From Siphonodentalium dalli (lineage: Eukaryota > Mollusca > Scaphopoda > Gadilida > Siphonodentaliidae): DNA of 64,000 nt. The stretch spans positions 52,219,349 through 52,283,348 of the forward strand of contig CP136062.1 of NCBI GenBank assembly GCA_032622095.1. The letters run 5' to 3'. The translations under genes were made by a program, and so were the position numbers. The notes under the pieces are model-generated. The model worked only from the letters and a program-made list of their open reading frames with translations. It did no database searches and was not told the origin of the DNA. Below, one piece after another: positions 22,401 through 58,400 of this stretch (position 1 is its first letter; each line of letters begins with the position of its first letter).

Positions 22401-25400
22401 TGGTTCTTTAGTTCGTCCATTTTTAGTGATTCTCACGTCGAACAGATTCACCAGAGCCATCTTTGATGAACAAACCTTGTTGTGTAATTGTTTTGTTTTG
22501 TCAATAAATTCAATCATATCTTATCTTGCAGAATTTCACCACAGGATTCAATGACTCAGTATTGGAAAAAGAGTTTTCAATCACTGAAGTCGAGGGAAGG
22601 CGAATTCGCATAATTCTCACAAAATCTGTTGGTCTTCCATGTCTACGACTTGATGTGCTTGGATGTGATGCTTCATGTAAGTGCTAGAGCATTTCTTAAT
22701 AAGAGTCTATCTTGTCCAGACCACAATTACAACAACAACAACAACAATTATTTGTTACAAAATAATTTACATCTATATTTCAGATAGCTTTTAAGTTTTC
22801 TTATTTAGTTTAGTTTCTCTATATCCCCAAATTGACAGACAACACAATGCATAATCGAGGTGTCCAATGGGTTCACATGACCACCTTCGCCTCTGGGAAC
22901 TTAAATCTGAGTCTTTGTCTCCAATAGCGGATGAGACCATGCAGAATAATGTCCCCAGAGACTTAATTCTGCAAATGCCTGGCACCGTATTTTAAAGCTT
23001 GTTCGCATGTTGAAACAAATGCCTGTAAACATAACTGTTATAGCACAAGTCATTTTATTCACTAACATTTGATCAAATCTTGAGGATATACGTGTATATT
23101 GGAAAAGTGGTATCCTGACAATTCCCCAAACGAACATTTCCCCACCCAGACATTTACCCACTGGTCATTTCCTGACCTCCATGAGCAGACATTTCCCCAC
23201 CCAGACAATTCCCCAACTGAACATTTCCCCACCCAGACATTTACCCACTTGTCATTTCCTGACCTCCATGAGCAGACATTTCCTCACCCAGACAATTCCC
23301 CAACTGAACATTTCCCCACCCAGACATTTACCCACTGGTCATTTCCTGACCTCCATGAGCAGACATTTCCCCACCCAGACAATTCCCCAAACGAACATTT
23401 CCCCACCCAGACATTTACCCACTGGTCATTTCCTGACCTCCATGAGCAGACATTTCCCCACCCCGAAAATTCCCCAAATGAACATTTCCCCACCCAGACA
23501 TTTACCCACCGGTCATTTCCTGACCTCCATGAGCAGACATTTCCCCACCCAAACAATTCCCCAACTGAACATTTCCCCACCCAGACATTTACCCACTGGT
23601 CATTTCCTGACCTCCATGAGCAGACATTTCCCCACCCAGACAATTCCCCAAACGAACATTTCCCCACCCAGACATTTACCCACTGGTCATTTCCTGACCT
23701 CCATGAGCAGACATTTCCCCACCCCGACAATTCCCCAAATGAACATTTCCCCACCCAGACATTTACCCACTGGTCATTTCCTGACCTCCATGAGCAGACA
23801 TTTCCCCACCCAGACAATTCCCCAACTGAACATTTCCCCACCCAGACATTTACCCACTGGTCATTTCCTGACCTCCATGAGCAGACATTTCCCCACCCCG
23901 ACAATTGCCCAAATGAACATTTCCCCACCCAGACATTTACCCACTGGTCATTTCCTGACCTCCATGAGCAGACATTTCCCCACCCAAACAATTCCCCAAC
24001 TGAACATTTCCCCACCCAGACATTTACCCACTGGTCATTTCCTGACCTCCATGAGCAGACATTTCCCCACCCAGACAATTCCCCAAACGAACATTTCCCC
24101 ACCCAGACATTTACCCACTGGTCATTTCCTGACCTCCATGAGCAGACATTTCCCCACCCAGACAATTCCCCAAACGAACATTTCCCCACCCAGACATTTA
24201 CCCACTGGTCATTTCCTGACCTCCATGAGCAGACATTTCCCCACCCCGACAATTCCCCAAACGAACATTTCCCCACCCAGACATTTACCCACTGGTCATT
24301 TCCTGACCTCCATGAGCAGACATTTCCCCACCCAGACAATTCCCCAACTGAACATTTCCCCACCCAGACATTTACCCACTGGTCATTTCCTGACCTCCAT
24401 GAGCAGACATTTCCCCACCCAGACAATTCCCCAACTGAACATTTCCCCACCCAGACATTTACCCACTGGTCATTTCCTGACCTCCATGAGCAGACATTTC
24501 CCCACCCAGACAATTCCCCAAACGAACATTTCCCCACCCAGACATTTACCTACTGGTCATTTCCTGACCTCCATGAGCAGACATTTCCCCACCCCGACAA
24601 TTCCCCAAATGAATATTTCCCCACCCAGACATTTACCCACTGGTCATTTCCTGACCTCCATGAGCAGACATTTCCCCACCCAGACAATTCCCCAACTGAA
24701 CATTTCCCCACCCAGACATTTACCCACTGGTCATTTCCTGACCTCCATGAGCAGACATTTCCCCACCCAGACAATTCCCCAACTGAACATTTCCCCACCC
24801 AGACATTTACCCACTGGTCATTTCCTGACCTCCATGAGCAGACATTTCCCCACCCAGACAATTCCCCAACTGAACATTTCCCCACCCAGACATTTACCCA
24901 CCGGTCTTTTCCCTGTGGTACACTGTTTTGATGAACGTCATAGAGTGTTTCAACTAGATTGCAATTTCAACTCAGTTGAAACAAATATTTCAACAATTAG
25001 CAACCTACAATTGTTGTTGAGTGAACTCTTGTACATAGCCTAGGCCTATATAATTCCTTGTTAAGTTGTCCTGGAATCATAAATATTCATCCATAAATTA
25101 TTATCTGTCGAAATATATTCGTATTCAGTAAAATTACATGTCCATTATGGAAATTTTGTATAATTTATTACATATTCAGCATTGGAATGATAAAGAGAGA
25201 TTATTATTCTTGTTACATTAAAATAAAAAATAGCGTTTCGGTCACTTCAGTGTGAAAAAATTAAAACAGCTGGAAACCTGCTTTAAGTTTGTTAAGTTTT
25301 TCAGAGAATGTAGAAAGCATGTATTGGCATTTCATATATTTAGAGATCTATCTTGTCCACCTGTTTCATACCTATCATGTTTTACATTAAAATACGTCCA

Positions 25401-28400
25401 TTGTGGAAATGTCTGACTCATATATCTAGAAAGTTGGGAAACATCCCGTGGGCAAATGTCTGGCTCATATATATAGAAAGTGGGAAAACATCCGGTGGGG
25501 AAATGTCCGGCTCATATATCTAGAAAGTGGGAAAACATCCGGTGGGGAAATGTCTGGCTCATATATCTAGAAAGTGGGAAAAAATCCGGTGGGCAAATGT
25601 CCGGCTCATATATCTAGAAAGTGGGGAAATCTCCAGTGGGGAAATGTCCATTTAACTAAAAAGTGGGAAAATCTCCGGTGGGTAAATGTCTGGGTGAGTA
25701 ATTGTCCATTTTGTCAATTTCAAGGAGGATGTAGAAATGTCGGGTGGGGAAATTTCCGGGATTCGCTTAATGTGTCAACATCATTAACAGAACAACAAAC
25801 ATTGAAATAATGAAAGCCTGTCAGATGTATATTATGAAATCTGGAAGATTCTAGCTGATCAACTTGGAACGAAGTGTCCAGGGACACATTATCGAACACT
25901 ATTCATAATTTAAAGAACAAAACTAACTCTGACAATTGAAGCAGTAATATGATTAATTATACCCCCATGTCAAAAGATGGGAGGTATACTGGATTACATG
26001 TGTCTAGCCATGCGTCCATGCAGCAGTCCGTCCATCCATCCGTCTGCCCATATATCTCAACCATGGGTTATCAGATCTCACTCAATTTTGGTATGCAGGT
26101 TTGTCATCAGGAGAGCTTTCAAATGAGGGTTCATTGACGTTGTTCACATTTTCCATTCAAGAGTTATCCCGCTTTGTTTATCTGAAAATGTTGGATTTCC
26201 CTCCGTCCGCTCTTATATCTTAACCATGGGTTATCGGATCTCAATTAATTTTGGTATGCAGGTTTGGCATCATGCGGGCTTTCAAAAGAGGGTTCATGGA
26301 CGTTGTTCCCATTTTCCATTCAAGAGTTATCCCTCATTGTTTATTTGAAAATGTTGGATTTCCTTCTGTTGTTTGTTAGAATTGTGAAGATATTTGTTCG
26401 TTCATCACATTTATTTTCACAATTTGGTTTTCCACCTGCCGATATTTCAATTTATCCCATCATGGTGCAACCTCTTGTTATTACTATTTTCAAAGAAAAT
26501 TTAATGAAATGAAACCTCCACATATAACACTCTATAACACACATGGTTATAAAAGACTGAAACTGAAGAGACAAGGACTTTTATAAATGCCACGGGCTTG
26601 TTGTCCGATCCTCGCTTTTTGTTTTTAGCCATTTTATCGAAGATATCTGGCATTGGTCTATAGTAATGCCCTAAATAATCGACTCCTTAACCACAGCAGA
26701 ATTATGGGTAATTTTTCAGGATTTAGTCGGAAATATGACTTGTTGCCATTCATCGGAAAACTCTCACTGAATAGTGAATAATCGACTCCTTAACCACAGC
26801 AGAATTATGGGTAATTTTTCAGGATTTAGTTGCCATATTTCCGACTAATTCCTGAAAAATTACCCATAATTCTGCTGTGGTTAAGGAGTCATTTACTTAG
26901 GGCATTACTGTAGCTTAGAAGTTTGTTTCTTTGCATGATGATATTTAATAATAAGTATTAATTTTCTTGATCAGCTGACATCATTCCGGAAGCAAAAACT
27001 CAGGTTACCGTTTCTATCGACTACAAGAGCTCGGCGAATATGGCATTGGTGTGCGATATTGACAACCTTGAATCATACGCTGTCCTGTACAAAGTCACAT
27101 GGTATAAGGATGACACTGCTCTTAACACGACCCTCCTCAATCGTAACCAGCTGCAGCATAAACTGGCGTTATCAACATCAGACTTCAAGGAGAACCATGT
27201 AAGTGTATCTGTTTTATGGTTTATGCCAGCATGGCAAAGGGGATGTCAGACCTAATAACTTCAAACTGGGTGCACAGCACCACACCGGCCCCCCAGACTA
27301 GCAGGAAAATACAAGTATGAAGGGTCGACTGGTAACCGAGAGTGACCCCTCGGCTATCTACATTTAGTCAACAAGGGATATAGAATAGTAAAATGACTGC
27401 TCATTCTACCGCTATACATATAATTTTTCAAGTGATATGTGTATAAAACAGTGTGTGCATATCATGATGGAAAAGGAATGTAGCTGCAAGACATATTAAA
27501 GATATGGGGGTGGTTTATGGTTCTGTTGCCCAATTTGAACATGTACAGGTTTCCTCGTCCATCATGATATAAGATTTGTGAGGCATGATCCTGGAGCGGT
27601 TTACACAAATTTGGAAAAGATTTTGAACGTACATACCAAAGTAAAGTTAAATAGCCAAAATAGATAATTTTGAACATTTAATAAAGAGATCCCATATTTA
27701 GGAAGGGTCGAAATGACACCGGAGAGTGTCATAAGTTGCTAGGTCTTCACTGCTCTTGATTCATGACTTCCTAAACTGTTGCCATGTTGATCCTTTTCGG
27801 CATTTATCAGGATGACACTGCTCTTAACACGACCCTTCTCGATCGTAAACAAATTGGCGTTATCATCGTCAGACTTCAAGGAGAACCGTATAAGTGTATC
27901 TGAGAGGCTGTCTGCCAAAAGATGAAAGCTAATTAAAACTGAAGGGTATACTCTCACCAAAAACAGTTCTGAAAGGTTCATAGGATTGGAAAATGTACTA
28001 AAGGGTACAATCCTGCAAGCACACTAAACTCAGGCTTGGGACCAGTCAAGGTGTTTAACCCTTTACCCAACAGAACGACCCTGTGCCAATGTATAAACAA
28101 TTTGCAATGAATTGGTCTCTCAATAAACGCTAATAGTTTGTATAAACAATGTGCAATGAATTGGTCTCTCAATAAACACTAATAGTTTCACTATGCACAA
28201 GTTACATAAAAGAATAAATAACGACCTTGCTAAAGAGTGAAATGAAGCCTTAACCAAAACCAGTAATGCACTGCTTGTGTGATGCCTTTTGATGGCCGGA
28301 TTATCTGGAGGTACACTCAATAGTAACTACTCAACAATATCTTTAATACTTTCTATACTAAATACTCATTGACGAGTAGTTATCCATCAGGAAATGTTCA

Positions 28401-31400: not shown

Positions 31401-34400
31401 ACATTGTCGCTTTAAATTGTTCGCGCGCAACAGTACTACAGATAAATACATTGTACACTCTCAAACATGCCGGAAAGAATAGAGTTATATCCCATACATT
31501 AGACAACATACCAAATTCGCAAAAATGCGCGATTGGCAGCGTCTACGAAGTTTGCATTTATGCGCGTTTGGCAGCGAAAGAGTTAACCTAAGAGCTGACA
31601 ATGGCCATTTCAGAGAATTCAGATTTGTTTAGACATATGCGTCATGATCAACACCATGATCAACTAAAACTTTTTGATTCTGATAACTGAGATGCTATTA
31701 ATACATCTACTAGTACAGCTGAATAGGTCATTGTCACATGGTATTGTATAAACCAATCACCCGCCAATAGACAGTCTACATTAACTTACGGATACCCCTA
31801 ATAAAAGGGGTTTAGTAATAACACAACCATTATACTCAACTTGAATAACCCTACAGTAATGCCCTAAATAATCAACTCCTTAACCAAAGCAGAATTATGG
31901 GTAATTTTTCAGAATTTAGTCGGAGATATGGCTTGTTGCCATTCATCGGAAAGCTCTAACTGAGAGCTTTCCTATGAATGGCAACAAGCCATATTTCCGA
32001 CTAAATACTGAAAATTACCCATAATTCTGCTGTGGTTAAGGAGTCGATTATTTAGGGCATTACTGTACTTCTTCAATATGCAATCAGATTAACTTTCCCT
32101 AACCTGCATAGGCTGCTGCTATAAAACTGATAATGTGTCCTCGTGGCATAGGTGGTTGAAGCAACCAATTTCTAAATATATAGTTTTTACTTTCTTGAGG
32201 TAATGATAACTCATTTGCCAAAACTTTTGCCAAATGAAAATAATTCTTGCCAAATATGAATTATTTTTGCATGGGCAAATTTGGGAAGTGGCAGCATGAT
32301 CCCGGTACATGTGCATCCTGAAAATTCATAGATGATTGTTCTCTCATACCATTCTGTTTATGCATTGTAATTGTATGAAATAATGAAGATTATCCCTTTA
32401 ATAATTTAAGTCACAATATGTCTTAATATTCTACAGGTCTGGAAGGCTGAAGTTCGAGCATGTTATTTTCCGTGTTCAAACCTGACTGACCCCATGTTCA
32501 GCAACCAGTTTACAGCAGAAATTAAGGTAATTTATCCACATGAGTGACCCCATTTTCAGCAACTAGTTCACAGCAGAAATTAAGGTAATTTATCCACCCC
32601 ACCCCCACAATAACCAGTTCACAGCAGAAATTAAGGTAATTTATCCACCTGACTGATCCAAATGTTCAGGAAACAATTCGTATCAAAAATGAAGGTAATT
32701 TATCCACCTGCCTGACTTGAGGGTAGGTAGGGTGAGGAGAACAAAGCATATTTAATGGACTTAAAGACATGTTATGGATTGTTCGGGTATGTGAAACTGC
32801 TAGTACTCAGGCGCTATGCCAACTGGGGGATTGTAGTATTCTACTAACATCGCCCAAAATCTCGAAAGAAATTGACCATACTACGTACTCCATAGAAAAC
32901 GTCTGAACTATGCTCAATTGTAAATATTTACATCTCAAGCAACAATCGGCGATAAACTAACGCAAATGATTTCGGCATCGATACTCCTTGCATTTAATAA
33001 ATATATAAGACTGACGGTATGTGTTGTAAATTTGGATTAATATTCATAAAAATAACTACTTTGAGCAAGATTATTCTCCATTTCTATTTGATCACCCAAC
33101 CGGAGTGTTTCACATCACTTTAACAGTTTGACCATATTCATTTTAGATTCTCGGAGACAAAAACACTACATTAGCAGAAAGCGAGACTCCTGAAACGAAA
33201 AATATAGAATTCACGTCGTCTGTGCCACCTGGCATCTACTGTATCCTCAGTGAACAAGGAGAAGATTGCGACGTGTTTGTCTCATCGTCCGTCACAAACA
33301 ACGAGATTGTACGATGTTCCGCCGGCAACACTCTTCCACAAGTTGTCTTCCCAAGATCCTCTGATGCAGAATCATGCCGTCAAGCACTAACGAAGGACAA
33401 TTGGTCGTCAACCAACACATTCGCAATTCAGGCAGCAAATGATGGGATCATTGATGGGACGCGTACATCTGTTGTGTCCTTGAACGTATTTGCTGGAATT
33501 TCAGCAGTTACAAGCGTAGCAACGCAGGATTTCCAGGTAACAACTTTTTATATATAATATAGTTATAAAAACTGTTTGTAGCAACGAATAATATTCTAGG
33601 CTCCAGATAGAACTGATCCTGATTATAATTTCTTTAATAGTGTCAAAATGTCCTACATGAACATCAATGTAATTGCAGTAATGACTCCTTAACCACAGCA
33701 GAATTATGGGTAATTTTTCAGGATTTAGTTGGATGATGTACTCTACACGACAGTTCCAAACAGAATGGCACCATGCTCAGGGCTGTAAAAAATCAGTTCA
33801 CGCCCATCATCCCAACTTATTATTGCGATTGCATACGTTTCTCAGCAGCATGCTCACCAGCCAGATATGTAACTGAATGGATGGCAATGTCGGCCCTGGC
33901 AGGATGTCGAAACATTTAATTTTCTACTTGTTAAATCAGTAATCTCTATGCAATAATTATGACAAATAAACTTAGTATCTATCTATCTATCTCATATTAG
34001 TATACAGCAATGCCCTAAATAATCGACTCCTTAACCACAGCAGAATTATGGGTAACTTTTCAGTGAGAGCTTTCTGATGAATGGCATCAAGCCATATTTC
34101 CGACTAAATCCTTAAAAATTACGCATAATTCTGCTGTGGTTAAGGAGTCGATTATTTAGGGCATTACTGTATACTTGCTGGTTCATGAAAATAGCTGTAG
34201 CTGGTGTCAAGTAGTACAAAGCATAATGGGCCTTCTGCAGTCCATCAAGTGTAATTTGCAAACAAACACTTTTGAAACAGGTTAAAGGGGTACTGTACGC
34301 CAAATGTTGTTGTTGGTTTCTATAGTCTCCGAGTCGGAGAATAAGGTAACAATTTTTCCATTATTTGAAAGTCTGTTGAGTACGAAGTCATGTTACGGAT

Positions 34401-46400: not shown

Positions 46401-49400
46401 AATGTTAGGTGTTATAAGCAGACTCTTTCGAACATAAATCAATTAGTCAATACAACAATGAATAGAACCAGTTACCATCGTTCTGTAAAGAATTCTTTCT
46501 TATCTACCAGAAATCCATGTTTTAACCTTTTCATGATGGGAGCTGCGCTGGTGCAGCATTAAAGAACCTGTGCCAGTGCATTCTCTTATATATGTGAGTC
46601 TCCCATAGGGAGCCTTGCAACTATAAAAGAATACACTGGCTTAAAAGGTAAATATTATTAGGCCAATTTATTCTCTTATATATGTGAGGCTCCCTATGGG
46701 AGATGGGAGACTTGCATATATAAGAGAATGCATTGGCACAGGGTTTTTGCAAAATTTCAGGAAACTCCTGTCATGGAAGAGTTAGCCTGTATTCTTTACA
46801 GGGTTTGTATAAATGTTTTTGTTTTTGGTCTAGTTTATCTGCTTGTTTCAATATGGGCACTATATCGTCAATTTATTTAATTATTTCATTCCAGGTTGAT
46901 GCTGAAGGGTACACAAAGATCGTTCCTCAGCCGGTGCAGGTTGATGTCATATTCGACAATTTTGAACAGATACAGTGTAAACTGCCAAAATCCAATGCTA
47001 AATATCTCATCTTTACCAAGAACGGAGATGGCCCAATGTCAGCAGAAGCCATCTTTATTTCCCATAATGCCCAGTGTTATTCCTGCTCTGGACAGAAAGG
47101 GACTTGTCAAAAAAGGGTAGGTAGCTGTCAAAATATCACCATTGTAGTTGGGATGGGCACAGCATTACAGTAACAACCTTTTATTATATTTTCATTGCCT
47201 TTTTAGCTCAACTTTACTTTGTAAAGTTTGAGCTATTGCCATGGCTTGGTATCCGTCGTCCGTGTGTGCGTGCGTGTGTTTGTACGTGTGTGCGTGTGTG
47301 ATTCGTCAACAATTTCCTTTAGTACGGGCTACAGGTCGTACCTTTGGTCGGATCATTATAAAATTTGTCATAGCTGTTGACATTGACATGTAGATTGGAA
47401 CGAGTCATTTGGGGGTCATTCGGAAAAAAAACATGGCCGCCAGTGGCCATCTTGGATTTCAAAATTCAATCCATTAGCACGGGCTACAGGCCCTACTGTT
47501 ACAGGTCGTACTCTTTGTCTGGTCATCATGAAATTTGTCATGGATGTTAATATTGACATTTAGATGGGAAAGAGTAATTTTAGGGTCGTTCGGCCAAAAA
47601 ACATGGCCGCCAGCAGCTATCTTGGATTTTTCTCTTTGCACGACTAAATCCTTTGGCACCGGCTACAGGTCGTACCTTTGGTCGGATCATCATGAAATTT
47701 GTCATGGATGTTAACAATGACATGTAGATGGGAACGAGTCATTTTCGGGACATTCGGACAAAAAACATGGCCACCAGCAGCCATCTTGGATTTTACTCTT
47801 TGCATGACCAAATCCTTTGGCGCGGGCAACAGGTCGTACCTTTGGTCTGATCATTATGAAATTTGTCACAGCTGTTGACATTGACATATAGATGGGAACG
47901 AGTCATTTTGGGGTCATTCGGCACAAAAACATGACCACCAGCAGCCATCTTGGATTTCAAAATTCAATCCATTAGCACAGGCTACAGGCCATACTATATG
48001 TCTGATCATCATGAAATTTGTCATGGATGTTTATATTGATATGTAGATGGGAACGAGTAATTTTAGGGTTGTTCGGCCAAAAAACATGACTAAATCCTTT
48101 GGCACGGGCTACAGGTCATACCTTTGGTTGGATCATTATGAAATTTGTCATGGACGTTAACAATGACATCTAGATGGGAACGAGTCATTTTCGGGTCATT
48201 CAGCCAAAAAACATGGCCGCCAGCAGCCATCTTGGATTTTACTCTTTGCATGACCAAATCCTTTGGCGCGGGCTACAGGTCGTACCTTTAGTCGGATCAT
48301 CATGAAATTTGTCGTGGATTTTATTCTTTGCATGACTAAATTTTTTGGCACAGGCTACAGGTCGTACCGTTGGTCGTATCTTTATCAAATTTGTCATGGC
48401 TGTTAACATTGACATGTAGATGGGAAACGAGTCATTTTGAGTTATTCGGAAAAAAAAACATGGCCACCAGCAGCCATCTTGAATTTTACTCTTTGCATAA
48501 CTAGACCTTTCAACTTTCCACATTCCTAATCACTCCATTGACTGTAACACATGAAATTATTCTCTTTCCAAGTTGAGCTACAGTGTCATTGACACTTTCA
48601 TTACATCAAAATATTAATCTTATCCCCACTCGCAGGAGACCATATGTGTTATTCCACCCTCATGATGTCATCCTACTCTCAACAGTGCATCATGACATCA
48701 TATTTTTGCTTCATTCGGTATACTTGCGCATTGTTTTAACAGAAAAGGTTAGCGATGTAGCTTTAACTCTTGTGAGTGCCAGGTCCGATTTTTCTATCAA
48801 CCCATATACCCTGTGCCAATGCATTCTCTTATATATGCGAGTCGACTATAGGTCGCCTCGCATATATAAGAGAATGCATTGGCCTAACAATTTTTCATCA
48901 TTTGTTATTATTTTTTACAATTTTTTACAATTTTAATAATTTTTTAAAAATCTAAAAAAAAAAATGTTTTTTATTTTTTTAGGGCCGATTTTACAGACCG
49001 TAAATTAGGGATGACGAGATCGGCCCCTGGCACTGAAAGGGTTAAGAATGTGTTAGGTCTAGGTTTCATATGGTTTCACTGATCAGCTGGTAGGTAGCAA
49101 ACTGCTACAAAATCTTATTTCACTGCAGCTTGTAAGAGACCTACCGTTAGAAGTTGATATTCATTTTTATGTATGATTTTTCAGCTGTACCCAACGTGAG
49201 CGCCTTCTGTAGCTTTAATATTGTGTCGTTACAGGAAAACACTTGTTACACTGATGATATCTGTAGCTTTAATATTAAATGTGTCGTTACAGGAAAACAC
49301 TTGTTACACTGATGATATCTGTAGCTTTAATATTAAATGTGTCGTTACAGGAAAACACTTGTTACACTGATGATATCTGTAGCTTTAATATTAAATGTGT

Positions 49401-52400
49401 CGTTACAGGAAAACACTTGTTACACTGATGATATCTGTAGCTTTAATATTAAATGTGTCGTTACAGGAAAACACTTGTTACACTGATGATATCTGTAGCT
49501 TTAATATTAAATGTGTCGTTACAGGAAAACACTTGTTACACTGATGATATCTGTAGCTTTAATATTAAATGTGTCGTTACAGGAAAACACTTGTTTCATT
49601 GATGATATCTGTAGCTTTAATATTAAATGTATCGTTACAGGAAAACACTTGTTTCATTGATGATATCTGTAGCTTTAATATTAAATGTGTCGTTACAGGA
49701 AAACACTTGTTACACTGATGATATCTGTAGCTTTAATATTAAATGTGTCGTTACAGGAAAACACTTGTTTCATTGATGATATCTGTAGCTTTAATATTAA
49801 ATGTGTCGTTACAGGAAAACACTTGTTACACTGATGATATCTGTAGCTTTAATATTAAATGTGTCGTTACAGGAAAACACTTGTTACACTGATGATATCT
49901 GTAGCTTTAATATTAAATGTGTCGTTACAGGAAAACACTTGTTTCATTGATGATATCTGTAGCTTTAATATTAAATGTGTCGTTACAGGAAAAACTTGTT
50001 ACACTGATGATATCTGTAGCTTTAATATTAAATGTGTCGTTACAGGAAAACACTTGTTTCATTGATGATATCTGTAGCTTTAATATTAAATGTGTCGTTA
50101 CAGGAAAACACTTGTTTCATTGATGATATCTGTAGCTTTAATATTAAATGTGTCGTTACAGGAAAACACTTGTTTCATTGATGATATCTGTAGCTTTAAT
50201 ATTAAATGTGTCGTTACAGGAAAACACTTGTTTCATTGATGATATCTGTAGCTTTAATATTAAATGTGTCGTTACAGGAAAACACTTGTTTCATTGATGA
50301 TATCTGCTACATGAACAAGAGACTGAATCCTACAAAAAGAACGGAGATTTGTAACACATCTGTTTCCACCTCTTCTTGGTCCACAACTACAGGTATGCGT
50401 CTATGTCAGTCTGTATGTGTGTATGTATGTATGTTTGTATGTCTGTATGTCTGCATGTATGTATGTATGTATGTATCTATGTTTGTATGTATGTCTGTAT
50501 GTATGTAAGTATGTATGTTTGTCGGAATGTATGGTGTCATTAAAGCCATGCAAATTCAATTTCCCATTTCTCAAACGAAAATATTTTGAAAAGTATGTAT
50601 GCGCGATTTGGTATTATATCTTTTATTTCTGGTGCACAGCATTCTACATCAGCATTGGCTAGCTCCGGGTCTAATTTCAAGGGGGAATCGCATATGTAAG
50701 AAAATGTACTGGCATAGGATCTTTAATGCTGCACCAGCGCAGTTCCCATCATGAAAGGATTAAAGTGATGTGGAACACTCTGCTGAGGTGTTGAGAATGG
50801 AATATCATATGTGACCCGCCATATCAAATCCAGTCGGAAGACGGGATTTTTTTACCCTGTGCCAATGCATTCTCTTATATATGCGAGTCGACCATAGGTC
50901 GCCTCGCATATATAAGAGAATGCATTGGCCTAACAAATTTTTATCATTTTTTTAAAATAAATGTTTCTTACAATTTTTAGGACATAAAATAAAAAACATC
51001 CATTACCCTGCAGGGAGCCCCACACATATATAGAAGCATATAGAAGAGTGTCGTCTGCTCATGTTTGTCTGGGGCTCTGTATGGGTGAAATTATAAAATT
51101 GTTAAAGAATACAAGAAAAAATTATTAAAATTGTAAAAAATTGTTAGGCCAATGCATTCTCTTATATATGCGAGGCGACCTATGGTACAGGGTAAAAAAA
51201 ATCCCGACTTACGACTGGATTTGATATGGCGGGTCACATATAGCCATGTCAAAATGTGGTTATTTTTATAAATTTTATATCCAAATATAAATCGGATATG
51301 AACCCTGTCTTAATGGCAAGTGTAATTTTCAGACAGTGCAATTTGTTTTTTTGTGGATAGGGTCGGAATCGAACCCCGGCCCATGATGGTGAGGTGCGTC
51401 TTGCGACTCAAAGTCGGACGTCAATACCACACGGCCACCAAAGCGAAAAACAAATTATTTAATTTGCACTTCTCAAAATTACACTTGCCTTTAAAATAGG
51501 AACCTTATGTGTTATATAGTCCCAGACATGTTCAAAGAGCAACACTCGGCATGTCTCAGAGACGTATATATATAACATGCTACTGTGCCATATCTGCCTG
51601 TCATAATGCTTTTTCTGTCTTGTAGACCGATGCCCAAGATCATCAGTTGATTGGATCGCAACAGGAAATAAGGCTATTGGTTTCCACAATGATAAATCTG
51701 TATCAAACGTAACTCTAGAGGAATGTAAACAGGCCTGCCTTGAGGAACTCGAGTTTGACTGTGCATCTATCGACTACAATAGCGACACCCTGGAGTGCCG
51801 ACAGTCACGATACAGTCAACACAGTGTCGGACAATACTTTGGTAACTTCGGTAGTTGGTCGAATTACCAATGGCTTTGCACTGGTGGTAAGTAGAATCCA
51901 AGCCTTGGCATAGTGTGTCAAGACATTAGCAGAATGAGGTGCTCAGAGGGTGAATTTAGTGACTATCCCCGCGCAGAGGGCTAGCGTCCCCAAATTCACC
52001 CTCCAGGAACCTTATTCTTCTCAGGCCTCAACTGCTATGGGAGACATAGGATCAGATTGAAGTACCCCAGTTGAAGTTGGTGATGTAATGCTTCCTCGTT
52101 GGAGAATGGGAGTTACAACAGCCTCATGTTCACAATCACCAAGGTATTAAAGGTACTCAATCCGATTAAGCACCCCTAAATTACTATTTCTTTGGCTTGG
52201 GGGGTAAAAAATATTTGATTCGAGTCAAGGAACCTACCCATCAAGCTCAGAGTGATCAGACATCAATTTTTTAAGTTTGTTATTTCAATTGTTTGTGGCC
52301 TGGAAACATGCCGGTCAAAATTGCGGATGAAGATAGATAACTCTGAAACAAGTGGTAATACGACCAAATTTCATGAATACTCAAGTGATAATACGGCCGT

Positions 52401-55400
52401 ATTTCGTTATTTTTGGAAATTTTAGACCGTATTTTGTTGCAATTAATCGATTCTGATAACTAGAGTGTAATTTGAAGAAATAATGTTGTTGTATCTTGAT
52501 GATATGGGGACCCTCAGATCCGATTGAGTACCTTTAATCAATGTAAAGCACATTAAAATCTTTCACTCTATAATGTGCTATAAAAATTAATGGGTTGATC
52601 TATTTATTCCATTTATAGATCGGTGCACAGGCAAACACACCAGCTGGTCAGTGTCGTCAACTATGGGCATGGCTAGTGCAGATAAAGTCGATGTCAAGGT
52701 CGAGGGCATCTGGTCAATGGAGTTGTGCGAGAGTAAATGCTTAGAGTCGCCAACATGCAAGAGCGTCAGGCACAATCTAAAACGTGGACTATGTATCGGA
52801 TTTACAAACAACAAACAGGACAACCCGAGTGAGGCGCTAAAGACAATCCCATCCTGGGAGTATGCTGAGTTCGAATGTGTTGCCAGTATGTAGTTTATTC
52901 ATATACTGTCGATTTGCTGTAATTTCAGGGGTTTTTTTGGATGATTTTCCAGTCACAACTTTTGAGGTGTCGTCGCCGATAGTCATACAAATATAACTCG
53001 CCTAAAATTACTTTGTTGGGAGGAGAGATATGAAATACCGAAACAAAGGTTTCAAACCAAACTTTTATTATAATATGCTGTAAATTCCATAGTGATGTTC
53101 CGATAATCGGAATCGGAATCGGCCATCGGCCGATAATAGCCCATCGGAAATTAATCGTACCTCGCAGTTGAACATCGGATTTCACCGATTGTCAAAACAA
53201 ATAAAAACGTTCTAGTATCTAAGCAATGTGCACGCTTTAATAAACGTACGCAATACAACTGTAGTATTTAATGTAAAACGCAGTTGTAACAGCCTAAAAA
53301 GAAGCCATTCGCATTATCCAAACAGTCTGATATGATTATATATTATAAGAATGGCAATACACATGCCCGACATCCCGTGTAATGTGAAGTTATTGGTTCA
53401 ATCGCGTTAACACGAACTAGATTCAAAGAAAGCTTGACCTCATTACAGTGTAGCTTCCTGTAGAGCACGTGCCATGTGACGTCACATGCTATGTCAATAA
53501 CTTGAAGCACACTGAATTAATTAGTACAGTCGTGATCAGAACTGTCTTCAATAACGACCAACGTGAGTAGGGGCATAATTAGCTTTTTCGTCTGTACAAC
53601 GTATGCTATGAAATACGCTTAGATCCACATTGAACTTGGTTGAACTCGGTCTCGCGAAACAAAAATTGAGCAGGCGGAACTATAAAAGCTTCCGAGTTGT
53701 TAAAAGATAAAAGGTGTGACCAATGGAAACTTGGGAAATCTCAGACAAATATGACAGCAATTATTATCCATCAATCTAAATTTAGTTAATAATCATCGCC
53801 ATTCCATACATTGTTGCAACTTACAAGTATTCAATCAAGACTTTTACACCGCATGCAAGTGTTCCACACACGGTCATAACGTTACTCTGAGTCGTCACCT
53901 TTGATCTTTTTGTCAAAACAACTACCGGGTACATCAAAGGAAGCACACAACCGACGTCGGCAGAAATACTGTGGCGACAGTGTGTATATATTTCTTTGAT
54001 GTATTTGGCTTTGAAACTCTGCGGGATAGGGAGTGCATTAGGTGTATATAGGTCCATTATAGGAACAAACGCACAATATATATAAACATCGGAATCGGAA
54101 ATCGGCTGATTGTGCCTCCAGGTATCGGAAATCGGTCCGATAAGCTTTTTCATTATCGGAACATCACTAAAATTCCAAGTTGTTCATTCTGGTTTTCAAG
54201 CTCTTGGTGCCGATCTTTATAAAAAAAATGTTGCTGGCATAAAATTATGTAGATTTTGGGAAGATCTATAAGATTTCCAACCAAACTCATTGATATCGCA
54301 TTCAATACTTGTAATTGTTTCTTATAAGATCTGCATATACAATTTAAACACAGAATTCAGTCGCGTTTCACGTGATTACTTTGGATCCAGGGCCATAGTT
54401 TTTGACTGGTCTGACCTTTGTAGAATGAGGTTCTCAGAAGTTGAATTTAACTCATTAATTTTGTCTTTTAAATTAGCTTCACCTGGTGAGAGAAGTAATG
54501 TTGTTGCCTCAGACGTATCCATAGTAACGGAGTTCAGCATGAATGCCGATGTAGTGACATGTAACTATAAAATACCCGAATCTCCTGACGTAGAACTCGA
54601 GGCGTATGTTTTGTGGAACGTAGATGGAGAGTACATTGCCGAGGACAGTCCAGCAGGATCTAACCAACTTCCTGCTCAATATGTCAACGCCATTCAAGAT
54701 GGAACCAAAGTAAGCTTCCCACGCTGAACTGTATGAATTGTATCATTGCCACTGAACTGTATGCATTGTACATGTATTTCCGCTACTGAACTATATGAAT
54801 TGTATCTTTGGGGGTATTTGAGCTTGCAGACTGTAGCCGGCTGTGGCTTATAAGACATGCACAGTGGAAAGCTGCAGCAGCCAGGGAAATAAATGGCCAC
54901 TATCACTAAACTCCGACTCTGATAGGGGAATTTCTTATCAGGAAGATATTTGTTTGCTCCCTGGGGACCCATAATTGTCATTCCCATTTTGTTGGCGAAC
55001 AAACTAGATATTTTGTATCTATGATATATTTCTTGTTTGTTGAATAATTAAACTTATTTCGTAAAAACATATAGGCTATAATTATGTCTTGTTTATATAT
55101 GCCTACTTAGAGAAGAGAGAGATATATCTATATATGATCACATATCCTAATCTTTTAAATATCAGATTTATGGAAGCATTGACTCAGTAGGAGTATTAAT
55201 TACTTCAAATGTGCTGCTTCAGTGAGCGAGACCATTGGTGAATAGATATAGCAACATTATTCCGATATCATATTATCTATCAGCCACAATTTTATCCAAG
55301 TTCGGAGTACCAGTACGATAGTTAGTGACCACCGGCTGTGGCCGGCTGCAGCTTTCTACTGCACATACCTAGCCGGCTGTAGACCTGGCCGCCTGTAGCC

Positions 55401-58400
55401 TGTGATGCACAAATACACCCTTTGGCACTGAACAAAACAAAGTTTGCTGAACTTGCTGAATGACTCGACAATAAGTATTTGGTATAGAGAAGGTTAACAG
55501 AATAAGACATGAATTTATAGATATATATAAATTTTTATAACAAACAGTAATATTGATCAAACATAGTTGAATATATCGGCACATTTTACATAGAACCACT
55601 TCTTGAATGCCTTGGGAGTTTAACCATGAGATCACACATGTATGTATTACAGCGTTATATCGATTACAATATTACATCAATTACAGTGTTTACCTAGATA
55701 GTACATGTAAGGCAGATAGACTTTGTTCTTATTTTCATTATTAACCCTTTACCCAACAGAACGGCCCTGTGCCAATGCATTCTCTTATATATGCGAGTCG
55801 ACCATAGGTCGCCTCGCTTATATACGAGAATGCATTGGCTTAACACATTAAAAATTATAAAATTGTTAAAGAATGTAAGAAAAAATGGTAAAAAAGATTT
55901 TTTTTAGGCCAATGCATTCTCTTATATATGCGAGGCGACCTATGGTCGACTCGCATATATAAGAGAATGCATTGGCACAGGGCATAACTGTAACTATCAC
56001 AATGTGGTCAAGGAGCCGGTTCCAATGATATCCATATTTGTATGGTTCTATTGAGACAGACCGAAGATATTTTAGGCTGTTGAAGCTTTATTTGGCCGGT
56101 TTTGGCCGGTTTGTTGGGTAAAGGGTTAATATATCTCCAATAACAAGAATTCCCATATCGAAACCATTATTGATGTAAACATTACTGTTACAGTGGAATT
56201 ATAAAAGTCCAATAAGACACCAAAGTTTTATAAACAGTAAACATTGTAAAAGTTCAAAGCATTGAAAAATATTCTGAAAATCATATTCAGATAAAATATT
56301 TGAACTTACTACTATATTAGCGATAAGAGATTAATATTATTCACCATAAGGTGTCTGGGCTGTTCGTGCCCTCTGGATATAATGAGATTAATATTATTCA
56401 CCATTAGATGTCTGACCTGTTCGTGCCCTCTGGATATAATGTCCTTAGTAGGAACATCCAGTTATATTCTGTGTTTCGCCGGTGTCGACTGTTGTTCTCG
56501 ATATAATGGGTCAGTATCTGAGACTTGTATGACATGGTATGAGAGGTCACAGATGTTGTCTTCGCCTTCATTTATGGTGGCTTTGTATTATCGTAGCCTA
56601 ATTTGTGTTGGGGGGGGGGGCATATTGACCATGTGGAAGTTTATCATGTGTCAGGGCAGGAACGGTTAGTCATAATTTTTTGGCATTCCTAAACTCGGAC
56701 TCAAGTGTAACTGAGTTTGCTTGGGTTAAGTTAAGTTCTTCAGGTGACAATTCACCTGAAGAGCTTAATCCAAGTTAAATCAGTTACAATGTATTTTAAT
56801 ACAAAAGTCGGGATTTTTTTTACCCTGTGCCAATGCATTCTCTTATATATGCGAGTCGACCATAGGTCGCCTCGCATATATAAGAGAATGCATTGGCCTA
56901 ACAATTTTTTACAATTTTTTACAATTTGTTCTTGTATTCTTTAACAATTTTATAATTTCACCCATACAGAGCCCCAGACAAACATGAGCAGACGGCACTC
57001 TTCTATATGCTTCTATATATGTGTGGGGCTCCCTGCAGGGTAATGGATGTTTTTTTATTTTATGTCCTAAAAATTGTAAGAAACATTTATTTAAAAAACA
57101 TGATAAAAATTGTTAGGCCAATGCATTCTCTTATATATGCGAGGCGACATATGGTCGACTCGCATATATAAGAGAATGCATTGGCACAGGGTAAAAAAAT
57201 CAATACCAATTACCTAAGTTATCATTCTTAACAAGCGATTTACTTACGACAATTCATACCAACTTACACTTTACTAAGACAGTTAGGCTTCCCTTGCTAA
57301 AATATTATCTCTTCTATATTAGCGATGTTTGTTGACAAATAACTGTAACAGTTTTGTCTACATAACAGTGGTTTCAACTTGCAGAACTTAATTATTTGAG
57401 AACTATCAATAATTAATTTAAGAGCAATGTTTATCTATTTTTCACTTTCATTTTCTGTCATCTGCTTATATTTCCTGAGCACCCCTCCAAATGAATAATA
57501 GACCATTCCAATGTTTAGTTTTATGACTGAGTGGGAGCATCCATTTAGAATTAAAAACACATATATTCGTTCTTCATCATTAACCCTTTCTATAAAAAAG
57601 TGGATTCTCCCATTCAGTTATAAAAGAAAACATTGGAACAGTCTATTATTAATTTGGAGGGGTGTTCAGGTAATAAAAACAGATGACAGGCAGAAATTAT
57701 CTGAACATTTCCTAAAGGATCTACTTGTCAATGATTATTTAGTACAGAAAGGGTTAAAATTATTCTATATATCATTAATTGAGAAGGCAAGTATCATAAT
57801 TATTTATAATCATGTCAGTGTGGAATGTGTGTTTCTTTACCGATAGTCTATGTTATTAGCATGTCTACCAGTTGAACATGTCTGTAATATTTGTTTTTGT
57901 GTGTTTCTTTACAGATATTCTGTGCCGTCAGCGTGTGTACCAATGGAACATGTGAAGAAACAAGAGGAGATCTAACAATGAGTGACAGTTATACAGCAGA
58001 AATCAAGGTTACTAATTACATTTTTTTCATTAATAACTTATTTACTTTTATCAGATTATGGGATAAAAAATAGGCAGTTGAAGTTTATCAAATAAGTCTG
58101 AACTCATAGAGTGGAAAAAGTTTGTCAAATTATGCCGCAATTTTGAAGGCGGTTGAAGTTCATTGAAATAAGTCGGAATTCTTAGAAAGCAATAATTATA
58201 CCACCCGTAATGAAGTTATGGTTTGGGGGGGGGGGGGGGGGGGGGGGGTTACTGGAATCAGTATGGGCATCCATCTGTCCGTTGGGGCATCCATCCATTA
58301 GATTCCCAGAGGATCAATTTGTGGGCACTAGCCTTTGTGCAGAGCAGCATCACGAAATTCACCCTCTGGGGACCTCATTCTGCAAATATCCAGCACCATA

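Follow-up and report, generated by a model that had tools for sequence, protein, structure and literature searches.

When an intron presents a series of near-identical acceptors before a single exon, which of them is spliced, and what becomes of the others? This question is raised by a locus within the 64,000-nucleotide window of Siphonodentalium dalli DNA that was analysed here, in which the end of an intron and the start of the following exon are repeated together. A run of 19 acceptors that hardly differ offers a natural test of how one 3′ splice site is chosen by the spliceosome from a set of equals; the choice could be decided by transcription order, by closeness to the donor of the exon, or by context. 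The features around the repeated boundary are as follows.

46895–47116, + strand: upstream exon (exon 17 of the preliminary description), phase 0 to 0, donor GTAGGT; from the open frame and from scores of 6.5 (acceptor) and 3.9 (donor); no Pfam match.
47117–50277, + strand: intron of 3161 nt containing the array and other repeats; from the repeat list and exon boundaries.
49206–50306, + strand: 58-bp minisatellite of 19 units that join the end of the intron to the start of the exon, all with a TTACAG acceptor and a branch-site-like TTAAT; from repeat finder, motif and unit alignment.
49235, + strand: first acceptor of the array, upstream context without AAAT, top score of the 19; from motif, matrix score and unit alignment.
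49989, + strand: acceptor 14, followed by a 57-bp unit in which a 1-bp deletion alters the frame; from spacing and frame translation.
50278–50392, + strand: productive exon of 115 nt, ENTCFIDDICYMNKRLNPTKRTEICNTSVSTSSWSTTT, donor GTATGC; from open frame and phase; no Pfam match.

A motif search with TTACAGGAAAA located 19 TTACAG/GAAAA acceptors, with their first exon-side bases running from 49235 to 50278. The steps from one acceptor to the next are 58 bp in 17 of the 18 cases and 57 bp in the remaining one. This was in agreement with Tandem Repeats Finder, which, without use of the motif, reported the stretch 49206–50306 as a repeat of period 58 with 19.1 copies and 97% matches, so the earlier count of 19 acceptor copies in a 58-bp minisatellite is upheld. 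The unit joins intron end to exon start, as had been described, with 29 nt from each. The intron part has the same sequence in 17 of the 19 units; the first unit deviates in being without AAAT upstream of its acceptor, and one unique substitution lies before acceptor 8. The exon part occurs in two types, with nine units each, plus one unit with a unique deletion (unit 14), and the types follow each other from 5′ to 3′ in the order YYYYYYFFYFYYFYFFFFF, where unit 14 is counted as Y. The productive exon carries the F type, and the last array unit shares its full 58-nt sequence with seven others. The preliminary description had ascribed the same TTACAG acceptor and the codons E-N-T-C to every unit. 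TTACAG is present in 19 of 19, although the context of the first acceptor differs and gives it a higher score, and E-N-T-C is read in 18 of 19, unit 14 (49989) reading EKLV through its 1-bp deletion. A 15-mer of the unit, with up to two mismatches, has 19 occurrences within the array and a single one in the rest of the window (shuffle mean 0.53). Three units (49235–49408) folded no better than their shuffles (z −0.12), the search against Rfam at gathering thresholds gave no match, and neither did a search of one 48-base unit pattern against viral contigs, from which little was expected.

Other repeats surround the array. Tandem repeats of ∼164 bp and shorter (47315–48399) occupy much of the same intron upstream of it. 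Inverted-repeat-like stretches (ccaatgcattctcttatatatgcgag...), perhaps of a mobile element, lie on both sides of the productive exon (48830–48895, 50855–50935 and 51145–51195), and translated stretches similar to them recur in the frame listing.

Only the last unit opens a full exon, which confirms the earlier claim. Acceptor 19 (50278) alone gives an open frame, of 115 nt up to the donor at 50392, and acceptors 1–18 give exons of 173–1158 nt, all with stops. The donors at 47116 and 50392 are both plausible, with generic scores of 3.9 and 4.4 and with phases that fit. A tail of about 25 residues had been predicted from any earlier acceptor; this holds for 16 of the 18, whose tails end at a stop in the unit after the acceptor used, but acceptors 13 and 14 give 44 residues. 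All 18 early-acceptor stops sit 95–1080 nt before the donor junction of the exon. In mammals, a stop is subject to nonsense-mediated decay by a 50–55 nt rule, and by this rule all 18 early-acceptor messages are expected to be decay targets. Decay is therefore likelier than a stable secreted isoform.

Splice sites were scored with a generic matrix, with which the boundaries of the gene model were also partly chosen. On this scale the first acceptor (49235) scores 3.79, acceptor 8 scores 2.49, and the productive acceptor scores 2.17, the lowest value among the 13 exons of the partial gene model. The productive site thus has no advantage in strength; its position beside the exon and the exon's donor may favour it. 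Branch sites were scanned at acceptors 1, 2 and 19, and the other units share the intron part save for one base in unit 8. In the unit alignment, every one of the 19 intron parts contains TTAAT. At acceptors 2 and 19, the A of this branch-site-like motif lies 21 nt upstream and the nearest other upstream AG begins 28 nt upstream; at acceptor 1 the two distances are 17 and 24 nt. Further branch-site candidates at acceptors 2 and 19 are found 39–43 nt upstream, beyond the nearest other AG. The units thus look like separate acceptors and not like many AGs sharing one branch site. As the array contains few distinct changes, selection on the acceptors cannot be deduced from their conservation, and we infer that the conserved acceptors need none.

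Several other arrangements were considered for the units. In short tandem acceptors such as NAGNAG, a few bases separate the sites, and a single branch site serves them. Both these and the array are competing tandem 3′ splice sites, but here each acceptor has its own branch-site-like motif, and a NAGNAG acceptor is ruled out by a spacing of 58 bp as against 3 nt. Separate microexons are ruled out by the best donor-like GT in the units, which scores −2.5 on the generic matrix, and recursive splicing or intron gain through AG/GT proto-splice sites by the sequence of the unit, which reads TTACAG/GAAA.

The array is probably an expanded minisatellite of the mirage type, spliced mostly at the exon-proximal acceptor, with leakage to the early acceptors that is mainly degraded. 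Repeats of this kind are already in print from lancelet genes, and the 58-bp array appears to be a further member: its unit spans the exon–intron boundary, and splice signals are present in many units, here as acceptors in 19 of 19 (sites found by motif; the repeat finder separately gave 19.1 copies). Another mark of mirages is that units at the edges escape homogenisation; of the two edge units here, the first deviates and the last does not. Such an array would have arisen by tandem duplication of the intron–exon boundary, followed by expansion through slippage or unequal exchange. The 4-bp sequence TCTG is common to the repeat junction, to the intron flank at 49206 and to the exon before CTACATG, which suggests that a microhomology-led duplication probably started there. 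Each unit would then be a self-contained weak acceptor with its branch-site-like TTAAT 17–21 nt before the exon side. Because long introns (3161 and 1233 nt) flank the productive exon, the acceptor nearest to the exon's own donor would mostly be paired with it, and the 18 upstream copies would be removed as intron; leakage to early acceptors would produce stop-containing messages, most of them degraded. In a survey of competing sites, long flanking introns are reported to favour the sites closest across the exon (PMC9225289). The text of the same survey on 3′ sites, however, describes an overall upstream preference that is ‘significantly reduced’ under exon definition (PMC9225289), which is weaker support for exon-proximal choice than the abstract alone suggests; since that preference is only reduced, substantial leakage is possible. 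It also counts against exon-proximal choice that the first acceptor outscores the productive one, which is the weakest of 13.

The scores and the upstream preference of competing 3′ sites (PMC9225289) are among the arguments for a different outcome, in which upstream acceptors are used appreciably, each use leads to a stop and decay, and copy number lowers productive output as a heritable rheostat. In line with it, all 18 early acceptors are unproductive and score equal to or above the productive one. Repeat number is also reported to matter in two human genes: more copies of a 31-bp VNTR in CBS go with lower activity (PMC5188458), and in TERT the choice of isoform is governed by how many 38-bp repeats intron 6 contains, through the different mechanism of RNA pairing (PMC3948165). 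Against appreciable upstream use, the earliest acceptors define exons of up to 1158 nt, a poor size for exon definition. The lancelet mirages, moreover, are thought not to disturb splicing (PMC3087553, PMC3902484), and we regard such an outcome as unlikely. A more specific form, in which the 18 decoy acceptors with their branch-site-like motifs, together with poly(A)-like hexamers, set the productive share, so that it changes as the array length does from one individual, or even one cell, to another, appears distinctly unlikely.

The hexamers are also relevant to the stable truncated secreted protein that the preliminary description had proposed, for which an early acceptor would open an alternative last exon with a 25-residue tail and polyadenylation within the array. 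The poly(A)-signal-like ATTAAA occurs 18 times at 49274–50259, once at 19 nt before each of acceptors 2–19, and is followed in most units by TGTGTCG; outside the array it is absent from this intron and occurs at 0.86 per kb across the remainder of the window. These positions make a polyadenylated truncated form conceivable, as does the stop of the 25-residue tails in the unit following the acceptor. The 18 hexamers are nevertheless one motif repeated with the unit, AATAAA is absent from the array, and two of the 18 early acceptors give a different tail. The claim of a stable form found no direct support, decay being expected from the position of all 18 stops 95–1080 nt upstream of the donor junction, and we consider it very improbable. 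The copy number itself might be a product of assembly, with boundary repeats that are real but miscounted. Arrays of 58-bp units that differ so little are prone to misassembly, and one lancelet mirage appears to be aberrantly assembled in the genome draft (PMC3087553). On the other hand, two exon types in mixed order, a unique substitution and a unique deletion are not the result of plain duplication of one read, and the repetition of the boundary as such can hardly be doubted, which leaves this explanation quite unlikely. Variation of array length between individuals is plausible by analogy, as lancelet mirages vary in length (PMC3087553).

A second boundary array, which does not figure in the preliminary description of the 58-bp array, is located on the donor side in the same gene.

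32437–32526, + strand: core 1 exon, with its donor repeated downstream; from open frame and boundaries.
32480–32716, + strand: second boundary array, four copies of the donor AAG/GTAATT at 32526, 32584, 32635 and 32694; from repeat finder and motif.

This array is the mirror case of the 58-bp array: all four units have a donor (found by motif), and only the first donor (32526) gives an exon without a stop. The repeat finder, with the motif not used, gave 4.2 copies. The copies are diverged, with 31 of 58 aligned columns invariant. Their last 15 nt, donor included, are invariant in 4 of 4, and the column-shuffle value of 0.0002 is biased, because the motif used to find the copies comprised 14 of these bases. 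At the counterpart exon of core 2 (57915–58007), the repeat list shows no corresponding array. The coincidence of arrays with splice boundaries was evaluated by placing the 15 merged arrays between 32000 and 60100 at random relative to the 26 boundaries of the 13-exon partial model, which leaves out candidate exons with ill-defined ends near 26971, 35577, 37308, 38266, 39381, 40798, 52619, 54493, 56480, 62210 and 62869. Two of the 15 arrays overlap model boundaries, against a random mean of 2.0 (P for two or more, 0.64), so for these 15 arrays and 26 boundaries there is no enrichment. Arrays over boundaries are thus not unusual here, and no special cause is needed for them.

The gene in which both arrays lie is predicted from sequence to encode a multidomain protein with two diverged VWD-like cores, two PAN domains and EGF. 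The PAN exons are located downstream of the 58-bp array.

51626–51886, + strand: PAN domain exon 1; Pfam PF00024, E 4.4e-9.
52619–52890, + strand: PAN domain exon 2, candidate end; Pfam PF00024 (PAN_1), E 1.1e-7; acceptor called.

Pfam searches with 10 segments gave two matches past the cut-offs (both PAN), two weak ones below cut-off, and six segments with none; neither exon flanking the intron of the array had a Pfam match. Among four joined proteins, one passed (EGF_Teneurin, 5.4e-7, above the Pfam cut-off), one had a VWD match under the cut-off, and two had none. On hand-joined exons, the VWD match of core 2 (E 2.1e-4, 22.1 bits) is just under the cut-off of 22.9, and that of core 1 (E 0.05, 14.4 bits) is well under it. 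Aligned over 282 positions, the two cores, which are the core 1 and core 2 of the preliminary description, match at 89 (E 5e-35). When the PDB was searched by sequence, the EGF-bearing part had 13 matches (best E 0.012), of which 11 were Notch, teneurin or reelin, and the VWD part had two weak ones, both aminopeptidases. A VWD domain with EGF is the architecture described as VWDE-like (PMC9117669), and a VWDE-like name for the gene would be a lead, not a test passed. The window also contains an 87-bp minisatellite (23117–24912; 20.6 copies, 97%) whose unit length is divisible by three and in which two forward frames are open throughout (23073–25040 and 23084–24928).

The 58-bp array bears on the tolerance of intron-boundary repeats to expansion, and gene output could be tuned by such repeats, for which human CBS is a reported case. 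By analogy, a lowering of productive splicing by array length would be a testable idea, although we would give it a low probability. The array resembles the lancelet mirages (Adh3, BflGb6, BflGb9, TnC and PGBD5) in its boundary-spanning tandem units with splice signals in many of them, a likeness by type only. The unit of BflGb6 consists of an intron 3′ end and an exon start, with six and three units in two haplotypes, and the mirage of BflGb9 lies over the other boundary (PMC3087553); both types occur in this window. The 58-bp unit with 19 copies compares with 150–160 bp and 3 or 6 copies in BflGb6 (PMC3087553) and with 60 or 108 bp and 2 to 7 copies in two assemblies in PGBD5 (PMC3902484), and the unit size with 10–72 bp in Adh3 (PMC3087553). 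Length instability, even somatic, is reported for the lancelet mirages (PMC3087553). According to the authors, the data on Adh3 and the RT-PCR of the globins suggest that splicing is regular, with cryptic-site use allowed for (PMC3087553); the Adh and TnC mirages are said to give no aberrant mRNAs, and for the 60- and 108-bp repeats over PGBD5 splice sites, normal splicing is the inference of the authors (PMC3902484). The human CBS 31-bp VNTR, which spans the exon 13–intron 13 boundary, is similarly a minisatellite over an exon–intron boundary, with a similar copy number (16–21); it repeats a donor, its variation has been measured and an effect on activity reported (PMC5188458), whereas the array here repeats an acceptor. 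In the 844ins68 allele of CBS, the intron 7–exon 8 junction is duplicated as well, and the distal of the two duplicated sites is strongly favoured (PMC2630376). The source calls these sites donor sites of intron 7, but a title in its reference list has 3′ splice site (PMC2630376). That allele has one extra copy of 68 bp, compared with 18 extra copies in the array described here.
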